Shown one piece after another: positions 49,204 to 63,848 of a DNA stretch of 64,000 bases; position 1 is the first letter of the stretch; every line of letters starts with the position of its first letter. Origin of the DNA: Agitococcus sp. GTDB lineage: Bacteria; Pseudomonadota; Gammaproteobacteria; Pseudomonadales; Moraxellaceae. The translations under genes were made by a program, and so were the position numbers. The notes beneath the pieces are model-generated. The model was given only the letters and a program-made list of their open reading frames with translations, was not told the origin of the DNA and ran no database searches. The DNA is taken from contig JAUSLJ010000033.1 of the NCBI GenBank assembly GCA_030646715.1, forward strand, positions 124,001 to 188,000, in the 5' to 3' direction.

Positions 49204-50070
<867 letters not shown>

Positions 50071-50087: not shown

Positions 50088-53000
50088 TTATGAGGGGTGT
50101 GAACCTGCGCTTGCTCTCAAACTTTCATATAAGCCCGCGTTATTCAGTAAAATATCCAATAAACCTGCCCGTACTTTTTCCGAGTCTAGAGCTTGTTTGC
50201 TCATCGTCGTATTAGCGGCGAAGGCATCAATAATTGCGTTCATCATTTCGCTACTGAGGTCGGGGGAATTAGAAAATTGCTCTTTACTATTATTACTGGC
50301 TTGCTGCCTGAGTATTTCGGACTCTAATAATTTACCTTTGAGTACTTGGTTCACGAATACTAATTTATCATTTTCAGTCAGTTCACCTTCAAACAATTGA
50401 TTAACCTTGGCGATGATTTCCACCAAATAGGCTTTTTCTTTTTCGTGAATTTCGCCTGTGCCTATATCGGTAATGGCGGATAATTTAAGGGGATAACCTT
50501 CAGTTAAGGGTAGGTTTTGTGCGCCTTGTTTTTTCAATTTGTGGTGAGTGAGCGTCAGTTTAGATAGATCAATGCCATCACGCTCGCGGCCAAAGGCTAA
50601 CAACGGCATGAGGCGTTTAAAGAAAATGGCACGTTTCTCGATGTCAGTATTGCCATAGTCAAAAATCTGCGACAAAAACGCATACAGGCGCATATAGCCA
50701 CCCATGTCGCGCTTAAATAAAATTAGTCCATTGAGTTCGTTTTGAGCTTCTTGTGTGCTATCGGCATCCTGTTTACTTTTGGCGAGTGCCAGTTGTTGTT
50801 GCGCGGCTTTGTAGCGTTTCAGCAATCTATCGACGACAGGTTCTAATGCTGAAATTAGCTCGGCTTGGCTGGCATTGGGTTTTAGCTCTACCGCCACGAC
50901 TCTATCAACTTCAAAATCGTCGTAATAGCCCAAGCTGTCGAGTTTGGAGCGTAAGTCATAGACCAAGTGCGGATTAGTCACATCTTCTAATTCGGCGGTG
51001 GTGTGATAGGTTTTGAAGGCGGCCAAAATGTCTTCGGGTTTGTTGATGAAGTCTAAAATATAGGTGGTGTCTTTGGTCGGGTAGGCACGATTCAACCGCG
51101 ACAAGGTTTGTACCGCCTGAATACCGCCTAGTTTTTTATCGACATACATACCGCACAATAATGGCTGATCAAAGCCTGTTTGAAACTTATTGGCGACCAA
51201 TAATACTTGGTATTCGTCGGTGCTAAAGGCTTCGCGCATATCGCGGCCACGAAGATTCGGGTTTAGCAGTTTGCTGTTTTCGGTTAATGGCTCGGGGTGA
51301 GACTCCATATCAATCACTTCACCCGAAAAAGCGACTAATGTTCCCAGTTTATAACCTTGGTCTTTGATGTATTTATCAATCGCTAACTGCCAACGTACCG
51401 CTTCTAAACGACTGCTCACCACCACCATTGCTTTAGCTTTACCACTGAGTAAAGGCGCAACATTCTCGCGAAAATGCTCAACCACGACTTGTACTTTTTG
51501 GGCGATATTGTAGGGATGCAATTTTACCCAACGCATAATGCCTTTCATGGCTTCGCCACGTTCTACCGATTTTTCGTCAAACTCTTCGCCTTCATTGGCT
51601 AACTTAAAGGCGAGTGAATAAGACGTGTAGTTTTGGAGCACATCAAGGATAAAACCTTCTTCAATGGCTTGCTGCATCGAGTAAACATGAAATGGTGCAG
51701 GTAAATTGTCGGCACTGGCAGGTAAATCAGGATTAGGGCGACGGCCAAATAGTTCTAAGGTTTTGGCTTTTGGTGTGGCGGTAAAGGCGACATAAGTAAT
51801 GCCTGCATCATTTGCGCGTGCTGCCATTTGCGCGGCTAGTAAGTCTTCGGTACTGACTTCGCCGCCATCGGCTAAGTCGTTAAGTTCTTCAACAGAGAGT
51901 AATTGCTTGAGCTTAGAAGCAGCTTCGCCCGTTTGTGAACTGTGTGCTTCATCGGCAATGACGGCAAAGCGTTTGCCTTCGGTTGCGGCGAGGTCTTGCA
52001 CGGCTTTTAGGGCAAAGGGGAAGGTCTGAATGGTACAGACAACAATCTTTTTACCGCCTGAGAGTGCATTAGCTAACTCACCGCTTTTACTATTGCTTTC
52101 GCCTTTGATCGTAGCGACAACACCTGCGGTACGTTCAAAGTCAAAAATGGCTTCTTGCAGTTGGCTGTCTAAGACGGTGCGGTCAGAAACCACTAACACT
52201 GAATCGAATAATTTATTGTGTTGGGCATCGTGCAGGTCGGCTAAGAAGTGTGCTGACCATGCAATAGAATTGGTTTTGCCTGAACCTGCGGAGTGTTGAA
52301 TTAGGTATTTGCCGCCGATGCCTTCGTTAAGTACCGAGGCTAATAGTTTACGAGTGGCATCCAACTGGTGATAACGGGGGAAAATTAGGCTGGCGAGTTG
52401 TTTTTTGCTGTCGCGTTTGCCGACCAAGTAGCGGCCTAAAATTTCGAGCCAACTGTCACGCGCCCAGACGTTTTCCCACAGGTAAGCGGTGCGATGGCCT
52501 TTCTCATTGGGTGGATTACCCGCCGCGCCATTGTCGCCTTGGTTAAACGGTAAAAAGACGGTGGCTGCGCCTTGCAGTTTGGTGGTCATATACACTTCGC
52601 TATTACTCACAGCAAAATGAACTAATGCACCACGCGGAAAGTCGAGCAAAGGTTCGGCGGCGTTTTGGTTTTTGGGGCGAGGGTGACGGTCATAGCGATA
52701 TTGGTCGATGGCATCATTCACGCTTTGGGTGAAGTTGGTTTTTAGCTCTACGGTGGCAACAGGTAGGCCATTCACAAACAATACTAAGTCGATGTTGTTT
52801 TCGTTATGTAGTGAATAACGCACTTGGCGCACCACGCGCAAGCGATTAGCGGCATAACGGCTTTGTAAGTCGGGATTCATCGCCAGTGCAGGTTTAAACT
52901 GCGCTAACTGTAAGGGTTGACGTAAGCCCAATAGCTCTATGCCGTGACGTAAGACCGTTAATGTGCCTTGGTCGTCTAGTTGTTTACGCAGTCGGTCAAG

Positions 53001-53210
53001 GACGACTTTTTGAGCAGTTGCACCATGATTTTTTGTAAGGGTTTGCCATGCTTGCGGCTGAGTGCTTTGTATCCACGCGATAACATCGGCAGGGTACAGG
53101 GCATAGGCGCGGTCATAATTTACGGCATCGCCTTCGCTGTATAACCAACCATGAGCCGCCAAATGATTGCAGATGTCGTTTTCAAAGGCGATTTCCTTGT
53201 GGATGCTCAT
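50088..53210 (-). CDS. hsdR: Type I restriction enzyme, R (endonuclease/translocase) subunit
   Basis: The motor and nuclease of a type I R-M system. The N-terminal PD-(D/E)xK nuclease has 'DLVLFVNGLPVATVELKTN', carrying the Asp and ExK pair. The SF2 helicase has Walker A 'HSAGSGKTNSIAW', DEAH-type Walker B 'IADEAHSSQTGE', motif III 'YVAFTATPK' and motif VI 'TLSRLNRAY'. A helical C-terminus binds the HsdM/S core. At 1040 residues it is complete. The upstream repeat begins immediately before the ATG, and its GGGGAG arm lies 6 bases from the start as the likely Shine-Dalgarno. It is separated from hsdS by a DUF559 gene and two repeat arrays. Confidence 0.95.
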   Translation of the reverse strand: MSIHKEIAFENDICNHLAAHGWLYSEGDAVNYDRAYALYPADVIAWIQSTQPQAWQTLTKNHGATAQKVVLDRLRKQLDDQGTLTVLRHGIELLGLRQPLQLAQFKPALAMNPDLQSRYAANRLRVVRQVRYSLHNENNIDLVLFVNGLPVATVELKTNFTQSVNDAIDQYRYDRHPRPKNQNAAEPLLDFPRGALVHFAVSNSEVYMTTKLQGAATVFLPFNQGDNGAAGNPPNEKGHRTAYLWENVWARDSWLEILGRYLVGKRDSKKQLASLIFPRYHQLDATRKLLASVLNEGIGGKYLIQHSAGSGKTNSIAWSAHFLADLHDAQHNKLFDSVLVVSDRTVLDSQLQEAIFDFERTAGVVATIKGESNSKSGELANALSGGKKIVVCTIQTFPFALKAVQDLAATEGKRFAVIADEAHSSQTGEAASKLKQLLSVEELNDLADGGEVSTEDLLAAQMAARANDAGITYVAFTATPKAKTLELFGRRPNPDLPASADNLPAPFHVYSMQQAIEEGFILDVLQNYTSYSLAFKLANEGEEFDEKSVERGEAMKGIMRWVKLHPYNIAQKVQVVVEHFRENVAPLLSGKAKAMVVVSSRLEAVRWQLAIDKYIKDQGYKLGTLVAFSGEVIDMESHPEPLTENSKLLNPNLRGRDMREAFSTDEYQVLLVANKFQTGFDQPLLCGMYVDKKLGGIQAVQTLSRLNRAYPTKDTTYILDFINKPEDILAAFKTYHTTAELEDVTNPHLVYDLRSKLDSLGYYDDFEVDRVVAVELKPNASQAELISALEPVVDRLLKRYKAAQQQLALAKSKQDADSTQEAQNELNGLILFKRDMGGYMRLYAFLSQIFDYGNTDIEKRAIFFKRLMPLLAFGRERDGIDLSKLTLTHHKLKKQGAQNLPLTEGYPLKLSAITDIGTGEIHEKEKAYLVEIIAKVNQLFEGELTENDKLVFVNQVLKGKLLESEILRQQASNNSKEQFSNSPDLSSEMMNAIIDAFAANTTMSKQALDSEKVRAGLLDILLNNAGLYESLRASAGSHPS

Positions 53211-53212
53211 TT

Positions 53213-53548
53213 AAATCTCCCCTAACCCCTCTTTAGGAAAGAGGGGGATTTTCTTTGTTTTGGCAGGCGTTGTAGTGTTGCATAAGTTGTTGTTTAAGCA
53301 AAAGCAAATCTCCCCTAGCCCCTCTTTGCCAAAGAGGGGGACTTTCTTTGATTTGGCGTATATTTTCGTCAAAAAAGAGAATGCTCCTCCCTTTAGGAAA
53401 GGGAGGCTGGGAGGGGTTTTTTGTAGTCGAAAAGCGAATCTCCCCTAGCCCCTCTTTGCCAAAGAGGGGGATTTTCTTTGCTTTGGCGTTGATTTTAGTC
53501 AAAAAAGAGAATGCCCCTCCCTTTATCAAAGGGAGGTTGGGAGGGATT
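53213..53548. repeat. Palindromic repeat array 2 (between DUF559 gene and hsdR)
   Basis: Five hairpin units in the order A (53213), A (53306), B (about 53382-53420), A (about 53436), B (about 53513-53548). The A+linker+B composite repeats at about 130-base intervals. The right end overlaps the DUF559 stop codon and the left end touches the hsdR start. Apparent ORFs at 53233-53529 and 53348-53563 are repeat translations without gene character. Confidence 0.92.
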
Positions 53549-53906
53549 AAATTTTGCTTTTAACTATTTGATAAATAACACCAATAACCTCGTTTAAATG
53601 ACACAATACTTGTCGATTGTCAAACCGAATAACCTGCAAACCGAGTGCGTTTAATACGTCCGTACGTTCGTTGTCATAGGCTATCGCATCAGCTTCGTTA
53701 TGATGTCCGCCATCTAATTCGATGATGAGCTTGGCAGCGGCGCAATAAAAATCAACAATATAATTAGCGAGTGGTTTTTGGCGGTAAAAATGGACTCCGC
53801 AAATTTGTTGGCGGCGTAGTTTTTGCCATAGCATTTGTTCGGCTTTGGTCATGTTGTTGCGAAGTTGGCGGGCGAGTGGTGGTAGGTGTGCTTGATATGG
53901 TTGCAT
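53547..53906 (-). CDS. DUF559 endonuclease-like protein (Vsr-related)
   Basis: A 119-residue DUF559 protein, related to very-short-patch repair and other PD-(D/E)xK nucleases. Signatures are 'LRNNMTKAEQMLWQKLR', 'FYRQKPLANYIVDFYC' and 'KLIIELDGGHHNEADAIAYDNERTD', with the Asp and E-x-D/H residues of the nuclease fold visible. Its start has AAGGA 8 bases upstream. It lies between hsdS and hsdR inside the R-M island, with repeat arrays on both sides. Its function in the system is unknown; DUF559 genes are frequent mobile accessory genes. Confidence 0.85.
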   Translation of the reverse strand: MQPYQAHLPPLARQLRNNMTKAEQMLWQKLRRQQICGVHFYRQKPLANYIVDFYCAAAKLIIELDGGHHNEADAIAYDNERTDVLNALGLQVIRFDNRQVLCHLNEVIGVIYQIVKSKI

Positions 53907-53923
53907 TTTTAATATCCTTATTT

Positions 53924-54110
53924 AAATCTCCCCTAACCCCTCTTTACTAAAGAGGGGGACTTTCTTTGCTTTGGCGTTGATTTTAGCCAAAAAAGCAAAT
54001 CTCCCCCAGCCCCTCTTTGCCAAAGAGGGGAGTTTTCTTTGTCGTGGCGTATGTTTTAGTCAAAAAAGAGAACGCCCCTCCCTTTAGGAAAGGGAGGCTG
54101 GGAGGGATTT
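53924..54110. repeat. Palindromic repeat array 3 (overlapping the end of hsdS)
   Basis: Units A (53924), A (about 53998) and B (about 54075-54110), in the same orientation as array 2. The B unit runs into the hsdS coding region and forms its last codons and stop. The array fills the gap between hsdS and the DUF559 gene. Confidence 0.92.
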
Positions 54111-55433
54111 ATTCCTCACATCAATTTTACCCGTTACGGCTGCCGATATTAACGCGGTGCGGCGTTCTTGGAGTAGGGTGGTGGCTTTTTGGGCTTGTTG
54201 AATGAGGTTGTCGATTTTGGCGGTTTCTTGGTCGAGAAAGGCGACAATGGTGGATTGTTCTTCGATAGGTGGTAATGGAATTAATGTTTCTGCCAAGTAG
54301 TTATGTTCAATACTTTCTACTGTCGCTCCTTGTTTTGCCCAAGCAAGTAATAATACCTCGTTTAATCCTTGTACCCATCGGAAGAAAAAAGAGTTTATGC
54401 AAAAGCTTTTATTAAAGCACAATGCTTTCATATCCTGATTTAAGGTGACAGGAATATCATTAATTGCCACAGGAATGGTGTGTTTTAAGATTCCCGACCT
54501 AACTACAATAAGTATTTGACCAGAAGTTATTAGTGATGAGGAGCTGTTTTTCAATCCATGCTCTGTAATATATTCTTCGGTATTATTGATTCGTTCAACT
54601 TTCATATCTTTAGGTGAGACCCAAGGAATATCACCATTCCAATAAGCTAAATTGTCTCGGCTTGGAGTCCCGCCGCCACTGAAATTAGTGAAATACTTTA
54701 ATGGTACAACACTCCAATGCTCAGGCACTTCCCCCAACCATTCCACACCACTATCTTTCATGGGAGCATGAGGGTTAAGCCCTTTAGTGACGGCTGTTGA
54801 AATAACCGCTTGCCGTTTTTCTTTAAGTAACTCAATCAGCTTTTTTTGTTCGTTAATTAAGTTGTCGATTTTGGCGGTTTCGCAGTCGAGAAAGGCTGCG
54901 ATGGTGGTTTGTTCTTCCGTTGTTGGCAGAGGCATAGGAATAGCTGCAACTTTCTCTGCCGTAAAATGAGCTATCGTCGATTTATTACATAGAATATCTA
55001 TGTATCCTTTATCTTTAACTGCATAAATCCAGTAATAAAGATATTTTGTGACGTTGTTGTTTTTCGCACGAACACGATTGATAGAGTTTTGAAAATAACA
55101 ATATTCCAATTCATTATGCCAAATGGCGGAGCGTCCAACGTCACCACCTTCACTAATAAGTAAATCATTTTTCCGCAAACTTAAATGCTGTTTTTCTTTT
55201 TCTGAAAACCACATTGATTTCACATCGGAAATATCAACACCTGCCCATTGAATATTAGCGGCTCTAAGATATGGCAAAAATGTGTCATTTGGTGATGATA
55301 ATTCAGGCTGTAGCATTTTGCCCAAGGAGACAGAGTAGCTACGTTTTAACGGTGCAACTGCCCACCCCTGGGGCACTTCCCCCAACCACTCAACACCACT
55401 GTCTTTATAGGCAGCATAACGAGGAAAGCTCAT
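54084..55433 (-). CDS. hsdS: Type I restriction enzyme, S (specificity) subunit
   Basis: The DNA-recognition subunit that sets the target sequence for methylation and cleavage. It has two target-recognition domains, each opened by near-identical 'KDSGVEWLGEVP' (about residues 10 and 225) and closed by the conserved helix 'FLDCETAKIDNLI' / 'FLDQETAKIDNLI' that acts as spacer. The length of 449 is typical. The final residues after 'TGKIDVRN' are encoded by a palindromic repeat, an extension that is probably not ancestral. The start overlaps the DUF1016 stop as ATGA. Confidence 0.95.
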   Translation of the reverse strand: MSFPRYAAYKDSGVEWLGEVPQGWAVAPLKRSYSVSLGKMLQPELSSPNDTFLPYLRAANIQWAGVDISDVKSMWFSEKEKQHLSLRKNDLLISEGGDVGRSAIWHNELEYCYFQNSINRVRAKNNNVTKYLYYWIYAVKDKGYIDILCNKSTIAHFTAEKVAAIPMPLPTTEEQTTIAAFLDCETAKIDNLINEQKKLIELLKEKRQAVISTAVTKGLNPHAPMKDSGVEWLGEVPEHWSVVPLKYFTNFSGGGTPSRDNLAYWNGDIPWVSPKDMKVERINNTEEYITEHGLKNSSSSLITSGQILIVVRSGILKHTIPVAINDIPVTLNQDMKALCFNKSFCINSFFFRWVQGLNEVLLLAWAKQGATVESIEHNYLAETLIPLPPIEEQSTIVAFLDQETAKIDNLIQQAQKATTLLQERRTALISAAVTGKIDVRNKSLPASLS

Positions 55434-56464
55434 ACCTGTTCTCCTTGTGGCATATTTTGCACGTAAAACTCATGTAACTTAGCTTGCAGCAACTTTTTAT
55501 CGGGCAATTGCGTTACATACTCCGCAATCAATGCAGGCGACAACGAACGATTGAGCGCGTATTCCACCACCTCATCATCCTTACTCGCACACAACAACAC
55601 GCCAATCGCAGGGTTTTCATGGGGCTTACGATGGTCGCGGTCTAAGGCTTCAAGATAAAAATTGAGCTGCCCAAGGTCACGCGGTTCAAACTCAGTGACT
55701 TTCAACTCAATCGCTACCAAACAATTTAAGCCCCGATGAAAAAACAACAAATCCAACGCAAAGTCTTGCTTGCCTACTTGTAAGGCATACTCACTACCAA
55801 TAAAGCAAAAATCACGACCAAGCTCTAGTAAAAAATCCCTAAGTTTAAGTAACAAACCTTTATGCAAATCAGCTTCGTTATGTTCAGAGGGTAAGTTAAG
55901 AAACTCAACCACATAGCTATCTTTAAATACATTAAGTGCTTCTGGGTAGTTTCGTGTCACGATGGGCGATGTTTTTACAGGGCTTAATACCACACGCTCA
56001 AAAAATGCAGTATTAAATTGACGTTCTAACTCACGCTTGCTCCATTTTTCTTGAATGGCCATTTTTAAATAAAATTCGCGTTCTTCGGGGTGTTTGCTGC
56101 GGCTAAGAATCGTGAGATTATGTGTCCAAGTCAATTCTCTCACCAGTGGTGAGAGTTTTATATCATACTGATAAACCTCAAAAAACTGACGCATACGCCA
56201 AATGTTTTGCGCCGAAAAGCCACGCAAACTGGGCTGATGCAACTGGATGTAATTCGCTAACAATTGAACGGTATTTTTACCCCATCCTTCAGTATTAATT
56301 TTGTGGCTAACATATTGTCCAATCGCCCAATATAAATCAATCAACTCGGTATTAGCTGCACGATAAGCACGTTGCTTGGCGGAATCAATCAGGTTTAATA
56401 CATCATTAAAAGCGGTATGCGTGGTGATGGGCGTAGAGTTTTGATTCATTCCCGAAGAATTCAT
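55430..56464 (-). CDS. DUF1016 (YhcG-type) PD-(D/E)xK nuclease-domain protein
   Basis: A 344-residue DUF1016 protein. The N-terminal helical DUF1016_N part ('YWAIGQYVSHKI', 'NIWRMRQFFEVY') is followed by the nuclease-like C-terminus ('QDFALDLLFFHRGLNCLVAIELK', with Asp and E-x-K). These proteins often sit beside hsdS in type I loci; their role is not established, with proposals ranging from auxiliary defence nuclease to Holliday-junction-like binding. I use ATG 56464 because AAGGA lies 8 bases upstream. It is translationally coupled to hsdS. A 19-base palindrome inside the gene (56137-56155) recurs twice in its leader. Confidence 0.92.
   Translation of the reverse strand: MNSSGMNQNSTPITTHTAFNDVLNLIDSAKQRAYRAANTELIDLYWAIGQYVSHKINTEGWGKNTVQLLANYIQLHQPSLRGFSAQNIWRMRQFFEVYQYDIKLSPLVRELTWTHNLTILSRSKHPEEREFYLKMAIQEKWSKRELERQFNTAFFERVVLSPVKTSPIVTRNYPEALNVFKDSYVVEFLNLPSEHNEADLHKGLLLKLRDFLLELGRDFCFIGSEYALQVGKQDFALDLLFFHRGLNCLVAIELKVTEFEPRDLGQLNFYLEALDRDHRKPHENPAIGVLLCASKDDEVVEYALNRSLSPALIAEYVTQLPDKKLLQAKLHEFYVQNMPQGEQV
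56137..56155. repeat. TCACCAGTGGTGA palindrome, copy 1 (inside the DUF1016 gene)
   Basis: The 19-base palindrome CTCTCACCAGTGGTGAGAG encodes part of 'KLSPLVREL' in the DUF1016 protein. The 5-base GTCAA lies a few bases upstream, as in the other two copies. Confidence 0.8.
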
Positions 56465-56512
56465 GGGTTTCGTCCTTGTGTAATTACGGGTGAGAGATGG
56501 CAAATTTCAGGC

Positions 56513-56557
56513 AAAAAAAACCCGCCAATTTGTGCATCGTAGAGAGGCATGGCGGGT
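56513..56557 (-). terminator. Rho-independent terminator upstream of the DUF1016 gene
   Basis: On the minus strand, ACCCGCCA / TGGCGGGT forms a perfect 8-bp stem with a 22-base loop, followed by eight T residues. It lies between hsdM and the DUF1016 gene, about 50 bases before the start of the latter. It could end the hsdM transcript or act as an attenuator for the downstream nuclease and specificity genes. Confidence 0.75.
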
Positions 56558-56639
56558 ATGTTGTTGATAATCTTATGCGTGTGGGGCGTAAAAGTAAAGC
56601 CAACACACAATCTGAGTTGTTTCCGTCCTTGAGTCAATT

Positions 56640-56658
56640 GTGTCACCAGTGGTGACAC
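56640..56658. repeat. TCACCAGTGGTGA palindrome, copy 2
   Basis: GTGTCACCAGTGGTGACAC is palindromic apart from its central base. It lies in the 527-base gap between the DUF1016 gene and hsdM and is preceded by GTCAATT, as in copy 1. Confidence 0.85.
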
Positions 56659-56678
56659 TATTCGATAGTCGTCAAATA

Positions 56679-56697
56679 GTCTCACCAGTGGTGAGAC
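56679..56697. repeat. TCACCAGTGGTGA palindrome, copy 3
   Basis: GTCTCACCAGTGGTGAGAC, centred 39 bases from copy 2, is again preceded by GTCAA. It is followed by TTAGAGTCTGTTGA, a 14-mer also present at 14479. Confidence 0.85.
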
Positions 56698-56740
56698 TTT
56701 TAGAGTCTGTTGACCTTTCACAAGCATAATCAAAAAAGCG

Positions 56741-56990
56741 GAAATCCCTCCCAGCCTCCCTTTGATAAAGGGAGGGGAACTCTCTTCTTTGGCTAAAATA
56801 TACGTCAAATCAAAGAAAGTCCCCCTCTTTGTCAAAGAGGGGTTAGGGGAGATTTGCTTTTCGACTAAACCAGAAATCCCTCCCAGCCTCCCTTTTCTAA
56901 AGGGAGGGGCGTTCTCTTTGTTGGCTAAAATTAACGCCAAGTCAAAGAAAGTCCCCCTCTTTAGCAAAGAGGGGTTAGGGGAGATTTGCT
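56741..56990. repeat. Palindromic repeat array 4 (after hsdM)
   Basis: Two direct copies of the A+B composite in the opposite orientation to arrays 2 and 3: B (56741), A (about 56816-56852), B (56873), A (about 56950-56988), with a period of 132 bases. It ends within about 3 bases of the hsdM stop. The apparent 177-aa ORF across this region is repeat translation. Confidence 0.92.
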
Positions 56991-58826
56991 TCACGCCGAT
57001 AACCCCGCAATCATCGTTAAAATACGGTCGGTCACTTGCTTTAACTCGGCATCAATATCGGCCAACGGACGCGGCGGCTCAAACACATAAAAATGACGGT
57101 TAAACGGTATTTCATAACCGACTTTGGTTTTATCAAAGTCAATCCACGCATCGGGCGCATGAGGCAACACTTCACGCTTAAAATACGTCTCTATATCGTC
57201 ACTTAATGGTACATTTTCGGTATCGCGCAAACTGGCATCCGCCATTGGCTTACCTTTGTTTTTGCCTTTAGTATTCAGCACAATATTGCCTTGCTCATCA
57301 CGCAACGGACGCTCAACAGTGATGGTGCTATAACCAAATTCGCTATTCTTAAAGGCACGAGCAATAGGCGCAAGTTTGACTTTGCTACCTTGTGGCGCAA
57401 CAGGGGCAGGGCTGTGATCGTTAATCAATTGGCGGCTGATTTCTTTACCTTCAGCATCCAACACCGTCGCTAAATCTGCTTCTAAAAATTGACCAAACAA
57501 ACGGGTAATATCGGCAATATGCTCGTCGGATAACTCTTTGCGCTTACTACCTAAAGACTTACGCATCTTTTGCCAAAAACTAGAGGCATCAATTAACTGG
57601 ACTAAACCTTTACGGTGGCTCGGTTTACGGTTAGATAAAATCCACACGTAAGTGCTAATGCCTGTGTTGTAAAACATATCAGTCGGCAAACCGATAATCG
57701 CTTCGACTAAATCATTTTCTAACACATAACGCCGAATTTCACTTTCGCCCGAACCTGCACCACCCGTAAACAACGGTGAACCATTCAAGACAATACCCAA
57801 ACGACTACCACCATCCACCGCAGGGCGCATTTTAGAAATTAAGTGCATCAAAAATAACAACGAACCATCGCTAACACGCGGCAAACCTGCACCAAAACGA
57901 CCATTAAACCCTTGCTGCTCGTGTTCTTTGCGAATGTCTTTTTCGACCTTTTTCCACTCCACACCAAAGGGCGGATTAGATAACATATAGTCAAATTTCT
58001 TGTGCGGATGGCCATCGTCCGACAGCGTATTACCCGCGACAATATTGGCGACATCTTGACCTTTAATCAGCATGTCCGCCTTACAAATGGCAAAGGACTC
58101 GTCGTTAAGCTCTTGGCCAAACATCGTTAACCGTGACTGTGGATTTAACTCCGCTAAGTATTCACCTGCCACCGACAACATACCGCCTGTGCCTGCCGTC
58201 GGGTCATAAATGGTACGCACGACACCTGCTTTGCTTAATACCTCGTCATCTTCAATAAATAGCAAATTGACCATCAAACGAATGACTTCACGCGGGGTAA
58301 AGTGTTCCCCTGCGGTTTCGTTAGAAATTTCGGCAAATTTACGGATTAACTCTTCAAACACTTGCCCCATGTCGTTATTGCTAACGGCTTCGGGGTGAAG
58401 GTCGATGGTGGCAAATTTTTCGGCAACTTGATAAAGCAAATTACATTTATGCAGACGTTCAATCTGAGTGAAGAAGTCAAAGCGTTCAAAAATATCACGC
58501 ACCGCAGGTGAAAACGCCTGCATATAGCTGTAAAGATTTTCTTTGATGTGGTCTTGGTCGCCCATGAGTTTTTTCATGTCGATGGGTGAACTGTTATAGA
58601 AACTTGCACCCGACTTACGCAATAAAAACGGCTCTAGGTTAATGCCTAATGATTGTTTAGCGTCAATTTCGGCTAAAACGTCAGGTTTAGTGGCTTCTAA
58701 AACACAATCTAAACGGCGTAACACGGTAAACGGCAAAATGACTTTGCCATATTCGGACTGTTTGTAATCACCACGCAATAAGTCGGCGACAGACCAAATA
58801 AACGAGGATAGTGCTTGGTGATTCAT
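56991..58826 (-). CDS. hsdM: Type I restriction enzyme, M (adenine methyltransferase) subunit
   Basis: An N6-adenine DNA methyltransferase that modifies the HsdS target. It has the helical HsdM_N domain ('[35 protein letters not shown]'-type opening), SAM motif I '[11 protein letters not shown]', catalytic motif IV 'LSNPPFG' and the conserved '[18 protein letters not shown]'. The length of 611 is in the upper normal range. AAGGA lies 6 bases before the ATG. It is the first gene of the R-M island and is followed by repeat array 4. Confidence 0.95.
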
Positions 58827-58953: not shown

Positions 58954-58993
58954 GAAGTCCTCCCCTTTGGCAAAGGGGAGTTAGAGGGGATTT
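58954..58993. repeat. Palindromic repeat, half-unit after yicC
   Basis: A single hairpin GAAGTCCTCCCCTTT...AAAGGGGAGTTAGAGGGGATTT. Its end touches the yicC stop codon (TAG complement at 58994). The same subtype is found at 63809-63848. It lies in the 167-base gap between hsdM and yicC. Confidence 0.85.
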
Positions 58994-59860
58994 CTACTCA
59001 ATATTCTGGATTTGCTCCCTCATTTGCTCAATCAACACTTTTAACTCCACCGACGACAACGAACTATCCGCACTCACCGATTTAGAGCCTAAAGTATTGG
59101 CTTCTCGATTCAATTCTTGCATCAAAAAGTCTAATTTTCGCCCGACAGCGTTTTCTTGATTCAAAACACGTCGAATCTCAACAATATGGGCATTTAAACG
59201 ATCTAGCTCTTCGGCAACATCAATTTTATGGGCAAATAACACCACTTCTTGCTCTACGCGCTCAGCATTTAACTCTGCTTTGACTTCCTGTAAACGGCTC
59301 AGCAAACGTTGACGATAATGCTCCATAATCAACGGCATACGGCACTGCACTTTCTCACATTCAATCGCAATGGCATCTAAGCGTTGATTAATCATTGTTG
59401 TAATCGCCGCTCCTTCACGTTGGCGCATGGCAATAAAGTCACTGAGTGTTTCAGCAAATAAACTTAAAGCGGCTTGGCTGATGGCTTGCTGATTAGGTTG
59501 AGCAGGGCTAACGACACCAGGAATACGCAAAATATCGGCGGCATTGAGCGGCGCAGCATGGCGCGTCATTTTATCAATTTCACTGGCCGCCGCCACTAAA
59601 CGCGCCGCTAAGTCATGGTTAATACAAATATCGGTCATGCCCGTGTCATGGCTTTCGTGTTTGATCCAAATGTCAATTTTGCCACGACTTAATTGTTGAC
59701 GTAGCTTCTCGCGGAAGGGCATTTCCAATTCACGTACTAAATCGGATAGTTTAAAATTAGGCTCTAAATAACGATGATTCACCGAGCGAATTTCGCAAAT
59801 GACCAAGCCAAAATCACCTCGACACTCACGACGAGCAAATGCAGTCATACTAGAAATCAT
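58994..59860 (-). CDS. yicC: YicC-family endoribonuclease
   Basis: A YicC/YloC family RNA-processing endonuclease. The start 'MISSMTAFARRE', 'LVICEIRSVNHRYLEPNFKL', 'REKLRQQLSRGKIDIWI' and the C-terminal 'GRKLDFLMQELNREANTLGSKS' are diagnostic. The track ORF starts 22 codons earlier; ATG 59860 has GAGG just upstream and gives 288 residues, the family norm. In relatives yicC is next to gmk and divergent from rph; the rph side is preserved here. Confidence 0.95.
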   Translation of the reverse strand: MISSMTAFARRECRGDFGLVICEIRSVNHRYLEPNFKLSDLVRELEMPFREKLRQQLSRGKIDIWIKHESHDTGMTDICINHDLAARLVAAASEIDKMTRHAAPLNAADILRIPGVVSPAQPNQQAISQAALSLFAETLSDFIAMRQREGAAITTMINQRLDAIAIECEKVQCRMPLIMEHYRQRLLSRLQEVKAELNAERVEQEVVLFAHKIDVAEELDRLNAHIVEIRRVLNQENAVGRKLDFLMQELNREANTLGSKSVSADSSLSSVELKVLIEQMREQIQNIE

Positions 59861-59932
59861 AAGAACCTCAGAAAATTGCCATACTTTAGCCCGATTGTAG
59901 CCGCTAACCGTTATACTTGCGCCCATTTAATC

Positions 59933-60054
59933 GGGACTTACGCATCGAATGTAAATCTCCCCTAACCCCTCTTTAGAAAAGAGGGGGAAATTACCCCCTT
60001 TATAAAAGGGGGCTAGGGGGATTTGCATTTAAAAGCGATAACCACGTAAGTCCT
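59933..60054. repeat. Nested inverted-repeat element between yicC and rph
   Basis: Outer arms GGACTTACG (59934-59942) and CGTAAGTCC (60045-60053) enclose a second pair, AATGTAAATC / GATTTGCATT, and inside these a short-linker CTCCCCTAACCCC / GGGGGCTAGGGGG palindromic repeat. The whole 122-base unit lies in the promoter region of the divergent yicC and rph genes. It shares AGGACTTA-type ends with the two atp-operon elements and has no reading frame. Confidence 0.8.
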
Positions 60055-60080
60055 ATAACGTTATGGAAATGGAGAAAGAG

Positions 60081-60797
60081 ATGCGTCCTTCTGGTCGTCA
60101 AGCCGATGCCTTGCGTACGGTACGTTTTACCCGTAATTATACGAAACATGCCGAAGGTTCAGTGTTGGTTGAATTTGGTGATACCAAAGTGTTGTGTACG
60201 GCTAGTGTTGACTCAGGTGTGCCGCGCTTTTTAAAAGGCAAAGGTGAGGGCTGGATTACTGCCGAATACAGTATGTTGCCGCGTGCTACCCATACCCGTA
60301 ATGACCGTGAAGCCTCTAAAGGCAAACAAGGCGGCCGTACTTTAGAAATTCAACGCTTGATTGGTCGTAGTTTGCGGGCGATGGTTGACCTAAAAAAATT
60401 AGGTGAAAATACCATTGTTATCGACTGTGATGTCATTCAAGCCGATGGTGGTACGCGTACTGCGGCCATTACAGGCAGTGCGATTGCTTTAGTGGATGCG
60501 TTGACGTATATGCTCAACAAAAAAATGATGAAACAAGACCCACTCAAGCATTTAATTGCCGCGGTTTCCGTTGGTATTGTTAATGGTGAAGCGGTATTAG
60601 ATTTGGATTATGTCGAAGACTCCAATTGTGATACCGACATGAACGTAGTGATGAGTCAATTGGGTGGTTTTGTTGAAGTACAAGGCACCGCCGAAGGTAA
60701 AGCCTTTACCCGTGAGCAAGCTGATGCGATGTTATTGCTTGCTGAGCAGGGCATTCAAAGCCTGATTCAACAACAGCAAGAAGCCCTAGGCTGGTAG
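60081..60797 (+). CDS. rph: Ribonuclease PH
   Basis: A phosphorolytic 3' exoribonuclease that trims tRNA precursors; it is hexameric. The start '[16 protein letters not shown]', '[20 protein letters not shown]', '[36 protein letters not shown]' (in part) and '[18 protein letters not shown]' are clear. Three in-frame ATGs occur; the third (60081), with GGAG 6 bases upstream, gives the standard 238 residues. Divergent from yicC. Confidence 0.97.
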
Positions 60798-60799
60798 TT

Positions 60800-60935
60800 G
60801 AATCTCCCCTAACCCCTCTTTTAAAAAGAGGGGAACTCACTCCCCCTTTTGCAAAGGGGGCTGGGGGGATTTTATCGTCATGGCACAGCCAAATCTGTCA
60901 ATCGCCCCTAGCTCCTCTTTTACAAAGAGGAGGAC
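60800..60935. repeat. Two palindromic repeats after rph
   Basis: A short-linker A/B unit (60800-60873: CTCCCCTAACCCCTCTTTT...AAGAGGGG and CCCCCTTTTG...GGGGGCTGGGGGGATTTT) and a second single hairpin (60900-60935: CCCCTAGCTCCTCTTTT...AAAGAGGAGGACT). The first begins 3 bases after the rph stop. They fill the left half of the 320-base gap before the HPt gene; the right half holds the promoter described next. Confidence 0.88.
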
Positions 60936-63710: not shown

Positions 63711-63848
63711 AAATCTCCCCTAACCCCTCTTTTCCAAAGAGGGGGATTTCGATAAGCGTTAACTCTCCAATAAGCGAATTAGCAACCATCACAATCGGGC
63801 AAAACAAAGAAGTCCTCCCCTTTAGTAAAGGGGAGTTAGAGGGGATTT
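63711..63848. repeat. Palindromic repeat pair after the GGDEF-EAL gene
   Basis: A type A hairpin (63711-63749: CTCCCCTAACCCCTCTTTT...AAAGAGGGGG) and a half-unit (63809-63848: AGTCCTCCCCTTT...AAAGGGGAGTTAGAGGGGATTT) are separated by about 60 bases. The first lies 17 bases after the GGDEF-EAL stop. The second overlaps the stop codon of the convergent partial gene. The pair probably terminates transcription from both sides. Confidence 0.88.

Follow-up and report, generated by a model that had tools for sequence, protein, structure and literature searches.

A covarying palindrome within the coding sequence of DUF1016/YhcG nuclease genes, with extra copies in the leader of an Agitococcus sp. restriction-modification locus

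Several described systems come close to the palindrome that we describe here in genes of the DUF1016/YhcG family. Rickettsia palindromic elements are likewise palindromic DNA inside open reading frames and read in frame, but they are mobile inserts of 100-150 nt found in many unrelated genes (PMC4316617), whereas the DUF1016 palindrome measures 19-27 bp, is tied to a homologous position of a single gene family and is not dispersed. The palindromes of REP/RAYT systems are alike in being short, imperfect and tied to one gene family; the DUF1016 element differs from them in having neither genome-wide dispersal nor an HUH transposase, its nuclease being of the PD-(D/E)XK type. The autoregulatory operators of homodimers (toxin-antitoxin systems, restriction C proteins) resemble it in their two-fold symmetry, their location at the locus of the presumed reader, their locus-specific sequence and, sometimes, their arrangement as leader pairs. 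In contrast to these operators, nearly all members have the main site of the DUF1016 element within the coding sequence; its presumed reader is a nuclease, and its inner bases change yet stay paired. In C. difficile, a two-hairpin RNA that bears the abiF motif terminates transcription before abiF and also neutralises the AbiF protein (PMC12373285). The motif itself (Rfam RF03085) is present in the leader examined here, where it precedes the nuclease gene and finishes in a terminator-like hairpin, but no Abi_2 gene follows it, and the palindromes lie outside the abiF model and are found in DUF1016 loci without the motif. Finally, the protein of our locus matches many PADLOC PDC-S02 models, and with those that it matches no nucleic-acid element is given.

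The window, the whole 64-kb stretch of Agitococcus sp. DNA that was analysed, carries on its minus strand, in this order, hsdM, a leader, the DUF1016 gene, hsdS and hsdR. The type I methyltransferase gene hsdM (56991..58826; N6_Mtase E 1.4e-60) is upstream, the specificity subunit gene hsdS (54084..55433; Methylase_S E 1e-32) downstream, and the restriction subunit gene hsdR (50088..53210; HSDR_N, SWI2_SNF2) beyond it. The DUF1016/YhcG gene (55430..56464) encodes 344 aa from an ATG at 56464, with a DUF1016_N domain followed by a YhcG_C PD-(D/E)XK nuclease domain. Pfam matches (PF17761, E 8.8e-41; PF06250, E 2e-56) place the protein in the family, DUF1016_N and YhcG_C scoring 139.7 and 190.6 bits against cut-offs of 32.8 and 32.5, and many PDC-S02 models match it (best E 1.4e-130), which makes it a PDC-S02 candidate. 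The leader contains two 125-bp dispersed repeats, two palindromes and a terminator-like hairpin. GC-rich palindromic repeats in tandem pairs (CCCTCTTT..AAAGAGGGG and CCTCCCTTT..AAAGGGAGG) are also dispersed in intergenic DNA across the window, at 49926, 53236-54087, 56735-56991, 58970-60922 and 63734-63825.

An earlier note on this DNA had described three palindromes sharing a 13-base core, and we have recovered them exactly: TCACCAGTGGTGA occurs at 56140, 56643 and 56682. The extension to 19 bp with compensating outer triplets holds as well (CTC/GAG at 56137-56155, GTG/CAC at 56640-56658, GTC/GAC at 56679-56697), and so does the 39-bp spacing of the two leader copies. The GTCAA said to precede every copy is present on the plus strand, at a distance that is not constant (two bases in two copies, three in the third); read on the coding strand it is the AATTGAC or ATTTGAC edge of the palindromic element. 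Since the genes are on the minus strand, the leader copies are 5' of the DUF1016 gene. Leader palindrome A (56675..56701, GTCTCACCACTGGTGAGAC) is 39 bp upstream of leader palindrome B (56636..56662, GTGTCACCACTGGTGACAC, with ends AATAG/CAATT), and sequence inspection and a repeat pair suggest a possible third, degenerate leader copy at 56478..56498 (TCTCACCCGTAATTACACAAGGACG, compare ...CTCAAGGACGGAAAC in copy B) that adjoins the ribosome-binding region. The remaining copy, site 1 (56133..56159, minus strand), is formed by the codons of KLSPLVREL inside the DUF1016 gene, with 11 of 13 positions paired in a near-perfect odd palindrome at the aligned codon. Site 2 (55950..55976, minus strand), 183 bp deeper into the gene at the codons of KTSPIVTR, is decayed here and an intact palindrome in many close relatives. 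What the earlier note missed is which copy is conserved: it is the one in the gene, for which nearly all DUF1016 genes examined have a homologous position, and the leader copies are the extra ones.

The leader copies could, it had been proposed, derive from a duplicated fragment of a DUF1016 gene. An 88-aa leader ORF (56461..56727, minus strand), whose TGA overlaps the DUF1016 ATG, does read through the two leader palindromes in a single phase. Its similarity to DUF1016 proteins is confined to the palindrome codons, with none outside, which leaves the duplication unsupported beyond the element itself; the ORF is probably not a real protein. Allowing up to two mismatches, the 64-kb window contains 10 matches to the core against 0.78 expected. 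In the whole 4.2-Mb genome the exact 13-mer appears three times, always at the DUF1016 locus, and a reversed control pattern gave no matches; a wider pattern with two mismatches added only unrelated sites across the genome, little more often than the control did. The dispersed copies that characterise a Rickettsia palindromic element or a REP repeat are thus not found, and a common dispersed repeat can be ruled out. The bare 13-mer shows a modest excess in other genomes of the order, where the sampled matches fell in unrelated genes (e.g., at ITSGE codons) and their arms did not extend; matches to the extended pattern were mostly unrelated too, except one in a distant DUF1016 gene.

Comparison across the family shows that the in-gene copy of the window is one instance of a family-wide coding palindrome. 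The same codons are mostly palindromic in 26 relatives, of 55-73% identity, taken from genome collections, and often a second palindrome lies 183 bp on. In more distant DUF1016 genes a near-perfect palindrome of 19-27 bp is again present, within the 5' half of the gene and at a codon position that is homologous throughout; these genes come from Pseudomonadota, Actinomycetota, Bacteroidota, Cyanobacteriota, Deinococcota, Verrucomicrobiota, Myxococcota, enterobacterial plasmids and the Wolbachia phage WO. Viral contigs yielded few relatives. Most have AATT at the edges, and the peptide encoded differs from one gene to another: SPLVRQ (GTCTCACCACTGGTGAGAC), QQAVGQ (GTCCAACAGGCTGTTGGAC), QTLSAQ (GTGCAGACACTGTCTGCAC), VSLIRE (CTCGTATCACTGATACGAG) and GTLSHK (TGTGGGACACTGTCCCACA). 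This main copy replaces homologous codons and is not an insertion. The interior arms vary even among close relatives, and in a few genes (L148, L157, L162, L114/L115) site 1 is weak or lacks a palindrome, some of them having another nearby.

A way to separate a conserved peptide from a conserved nucleic acid is to ask whether the two halves change together. At 65 distinct palindrome sites, all 12 pairs have changed on both sides, 89.7% of the cells are paired (64.9% in shuffles) and the covariation score is 0.590, compared with 0.168 in shuffles (sd 0.014) and 0.04-0.16 with a slid partner. When synonymous codons are shuffled gene by gene, 5.8 of 13 positions remain paired, down from 11.0. Third bases of four-fold degenerate codons track the partner base in all four directions and not codon usage: G is opposite C in 100 of 105 cases, C opposite G in 37 of 41, T opposite A in 49 of 55, and A or G opposite T in 118 of 119. 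On the 3' arm we counted 68 G opposite C (of 71) and 48 T opposite A (of 52), against 31 and 10.5 expected from codon usage. At least 11 of the 13 pairs are formed in 55 of 76 genes, at the aligned site in 51 of these 55, and in only 26 of 1520 shuffled genes. On a tree of DUF1016 proteins built with the palindrome site masked, the coupled switches of Watson-Crick pairs, summed over positions d2-d13, number at least 84. Synonymous shuffles and four-fold site counts reject codon bias and protein constraint; together with shared ancestry, these do not explain the paired changes. Since the two halves change together across phyla, what is conserved is shown to be nucleic acid and not peptide, and it is apparently on the nucleic acid itself that selection acts in DUF1016 genes, E. 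coli yhcG included. Selection for the palindrome itself, as for a dimer operator or an RNA hairpin, had been proposed from the three copies and is strongly supported by these coupled changes throughout the family.

Extra copies beside or within DUF1016 genes take the form of tandem 39-bp arrays, or are found in the 5' leader or just past the stop, and the leader pair of the window belongs to this class, its 39-bp period being that of the tandem array inside E. coli yhcG. K-12-type yhcG has three in-gene tandem copies spaced by 39 bp and one more centred 28 bp after the stop codon; other E. coli strains have one or two in-gene copies (a range of 1 to 3), and a frameshifted allele has two at a 23-bp spacing. 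Two copies with the same 23-bp spacing are located at the 3' end in Steroidobacter. In Paenarthrobacter the leader copy is GTCCAGACGCTGTCTGGAC and the in-gene copy GTCCAGACACCGTCTGGAC; in Segatella a leader copy (TGTGGAACGGTGTTCCACA) is found 26 bp before the start codon of a gene whose own copy is TGTGGGACACTGTCCCACA. Several of these extra copies share inner bases with the in-gene copy of their own locus and not with other lineages (TCACCA in the window, GTCCAGAC in the Paenarthrobacter leader, TGTGGRAC in the Segatella leader, CAGACA in E. coli). Along these lines, sites 1 and 2 are more alike within one gene than between genes (6.1 versus 5.5 of 8, with none of 2000 permutations as high), a likeness to which shared ancestry could contribute.

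As in a homodimer operator, the site is two-fold symmetric, lineage-specific and repeated at its own locus (phylogeny may contribute to the similarity of sites 1 and 2). The role of the palindrome is, we infer, functional, and the reading that we favor, with about as much confidence as doubt, is that it may act in cis as a self-recognition element, read by the DUF1016 protein as DNA or as an mRNA hairpin, for autoregulation. That the reader would be this protein we infer from its association with the element and from the same-locus similarity; self-recognition is the simplest explanation because the DUF1016 protein is the only partner at every locus. The cis element would be two-fold symmetric, at a fixed codon position, with additional leader, tandem or post-stop copies in some lineages. 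The protein of the locus, a helical N-terminal domain joined to a PD-(D/E)XK nuclease and expected to dimerise, would read it, and by binding or cutting the element within its own gene or mRNA would limit its own expression. In the window, the two leader copies would provide added control before the nuclease and hsdS genes, next to the terminator-like abiF RNA hairpin. As had been suggested, this region may plausibly control the nuclease and hsdS.

Three forms come into question for the reading of the element, a DNA duplex, a DNA cruciform and a hairpin in the mRNA, and they may be approached from the protein and from the pairs. A first AlphaFold model was too poor (pLDDT 57); the second (pLDDT 76), which we have used, shows kinship of the nuclease domain to NucS/EndoMS only. 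A sequence search of the PDB gave only an implausible partial match, uL24m, which was rejected. The nuclease domain had earlier been linked to Holliday-junction-resolvase-like nucleases (PMC1189080), and E. coli YhcG has been associated with HsdMRS and McrBC and shows synthetic lethality with alleles of dnaB, dnaN and parE (PMC2672614). The DNA form is favored because of the NucS/EndoMS-like nuclease domain and the links of YhcG to DNA enzymes and replication genetics. Wobble pairs lean weakly towards RNA, G.U mismatches on the sense strand outnumbering A.C (18 versus 9, p = 0.12). The variation of the interior arms among close relatives counts against a protein that reads sequence strictly, which would not allow it. 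The edges are constant, the inner bases are typical of the lineage and the pairs between them switch freely, which suggests that the element folds, although a dimer co-evolving with its site or template-switch correction could mimic part of these signs. A more specific proposal, tentative and somewhat improbable as it stands, is of a foldable self-recognition mark carried in the coding sequence throughout the family and co-evolving with the protein. The DUF1016 nuclease would recognise this mark, as a cruciform or hairpin in its gene or transcript, and control its own dose by cutting or holding it. In E. coli yhcG, traces of that activity would then be seen in the tandem 39-bp arrays, in the flanking copies and in alleles broken at hairpin edges.

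Quasipalindrome correction, template switching within hairpins, makes the two arms of a palindrome identical. Such templated correction is the main rival to a self-recognition element: a palindrome that re-matches its own arms would show coupled changes without selection, as a long-lived hot spot in a tolerant protein segment. In its favor is the E. coli 3' copy, which is TGCAGACA/TGTCTGCA or TCCAGACA/TGTCTGGA depending on the strain, a coupled switch from TGC/GCA to TCC/GGA with the neighboring bases unchanged and the center base going from G to C, as by inversion of the palindrome. The copy number of 1-3 in E. coli and a truncated yhcG allele broken exactly at the hairpin edge go in the same direction. 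Left unexplained, however, are a codon position that stays the same through many phyla in a single gene family, the rebuilding at other positions (-108 and +183) of the same genes and the recurrence of copies beside the DUF1016 gene only, and near-palindromes elsewhere in the genes are not kept (51 of the 55 strong ones are at the aligned site). We consider this explanation unlikely.

Somewhat less probable again is an mRNA hairpin that acts on translation, decay or elongation independently of the DUF1016 protein, for example as a speed bump for a toxic nuclease. The predicted RNA stems (8-12 pairs, a three-base loop, -12 to -16 kcal/mol) would suit it, as would the window leader, which folds far better than its shuffles (z -4.5), and the placement of extra copies in leaders or just past stop codons. 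The G.U excess (18:9) points the same way but is not significant, and a speed bump would need neither AATT edges nor lineage-specific inner bases common to the separate copies of one locus.

The terminator reported near the palindromes bears on a further alternative. CCCGCCA...TGGCGGG followed by eight T is indeed there, on the minus strand; it turns out to score as the Rfam abiF RNA (56520..56556, then the T run; 55.4 bits against a gathering threshold of 37), and this terminator-like hairpin separates the leader palindromes from the start of DUF1016. With two hairpin repeats, this abiF RNA and then a nuclease gene, the window has the order of a Type III toxin-antitoxin system, in which the two 39-nt leader hairpins and the motif would be an RNA antitoxin for the nuclease toxin, much as the C. 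difficile two-hairpin, terminator-ended RNA with the abiF motif neutralises AbiF (PMC12373285). Against this, the motif was found in none of the 14 other DUF1016 loci searched, most of which lack leader repeats, and DUF1016 is not Abi_2/HEPN; the match is the only one in the genome, its direct downstream neighbor is DUF1016 and not an Abi_2 gene, and the genome's Abi_2 gene is on another contig (C47). We regard such a system as quite improbable, and the motif may be a relic or an attenuator co-opted by the nuclease and hsdS genes. Least probable of all is a mobile palindromic repeat (like a Rickettsia palindromic element or REP) inserting preferentially into DUF1016 genes, which would fit the extra copies at gene edges as well as the tandem arrays and copy-number variation in E. 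coli yhcG, but not an own genome without dispersed copies nor a main copy that replaces homologous codons.

No Rfam family matched the palindromes, and in the open-access literature (subscription papers were outside the search) we found no prior description of a palindrome or hairpin in yhcG/DUF1016; judged on its anatomy, the palindrome seems to be new. Palindromes conserved in coding DNA while the peptide changes are rarely seen, and here this extends across many phyla. DUF1016/YhcG is a widespread nuclease family of unknown function, a phage-defence candidate common in E. coli, and the palindrome offers a concrete handle on what it recognises.

Some further palindromes deserve mention. Certain subfamilies have an extra in-gene palindrome upstream of site 1, at 108 bp in L113, L116 and L146 and at 105 bp in L162, that is, 36 or 35 codons before it, with the codon phase kept where checked (L113). 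Matching palindromes further downstream of site 1 were found inside a second DUF1016-family gene around +2057 in L025 and, judging by the codons IVQTLSAQL, probably in another such gene around +2499 in L011. At the yhcG locus of E. coli M6 (L171, from 2874 onward) the allele, one that occurs in many strains, is cut off precisely where the third palindrome has its edge. About 470 bp of unrelated DNA follow, in which a small ORF is annotated as a transposase, and the old sequence returns just beyond the 3' palindrome region. A Moraxella osloensis plasmid (L153) has, adjoining parAB, three palindromes that are nearly identical (CTGTGGCAAATTGCCACAC), two of them in front of its DUF1016 gene and one behind it; being unlike its in-gene copy and beside parAB, they were left out of the count of extra copies.
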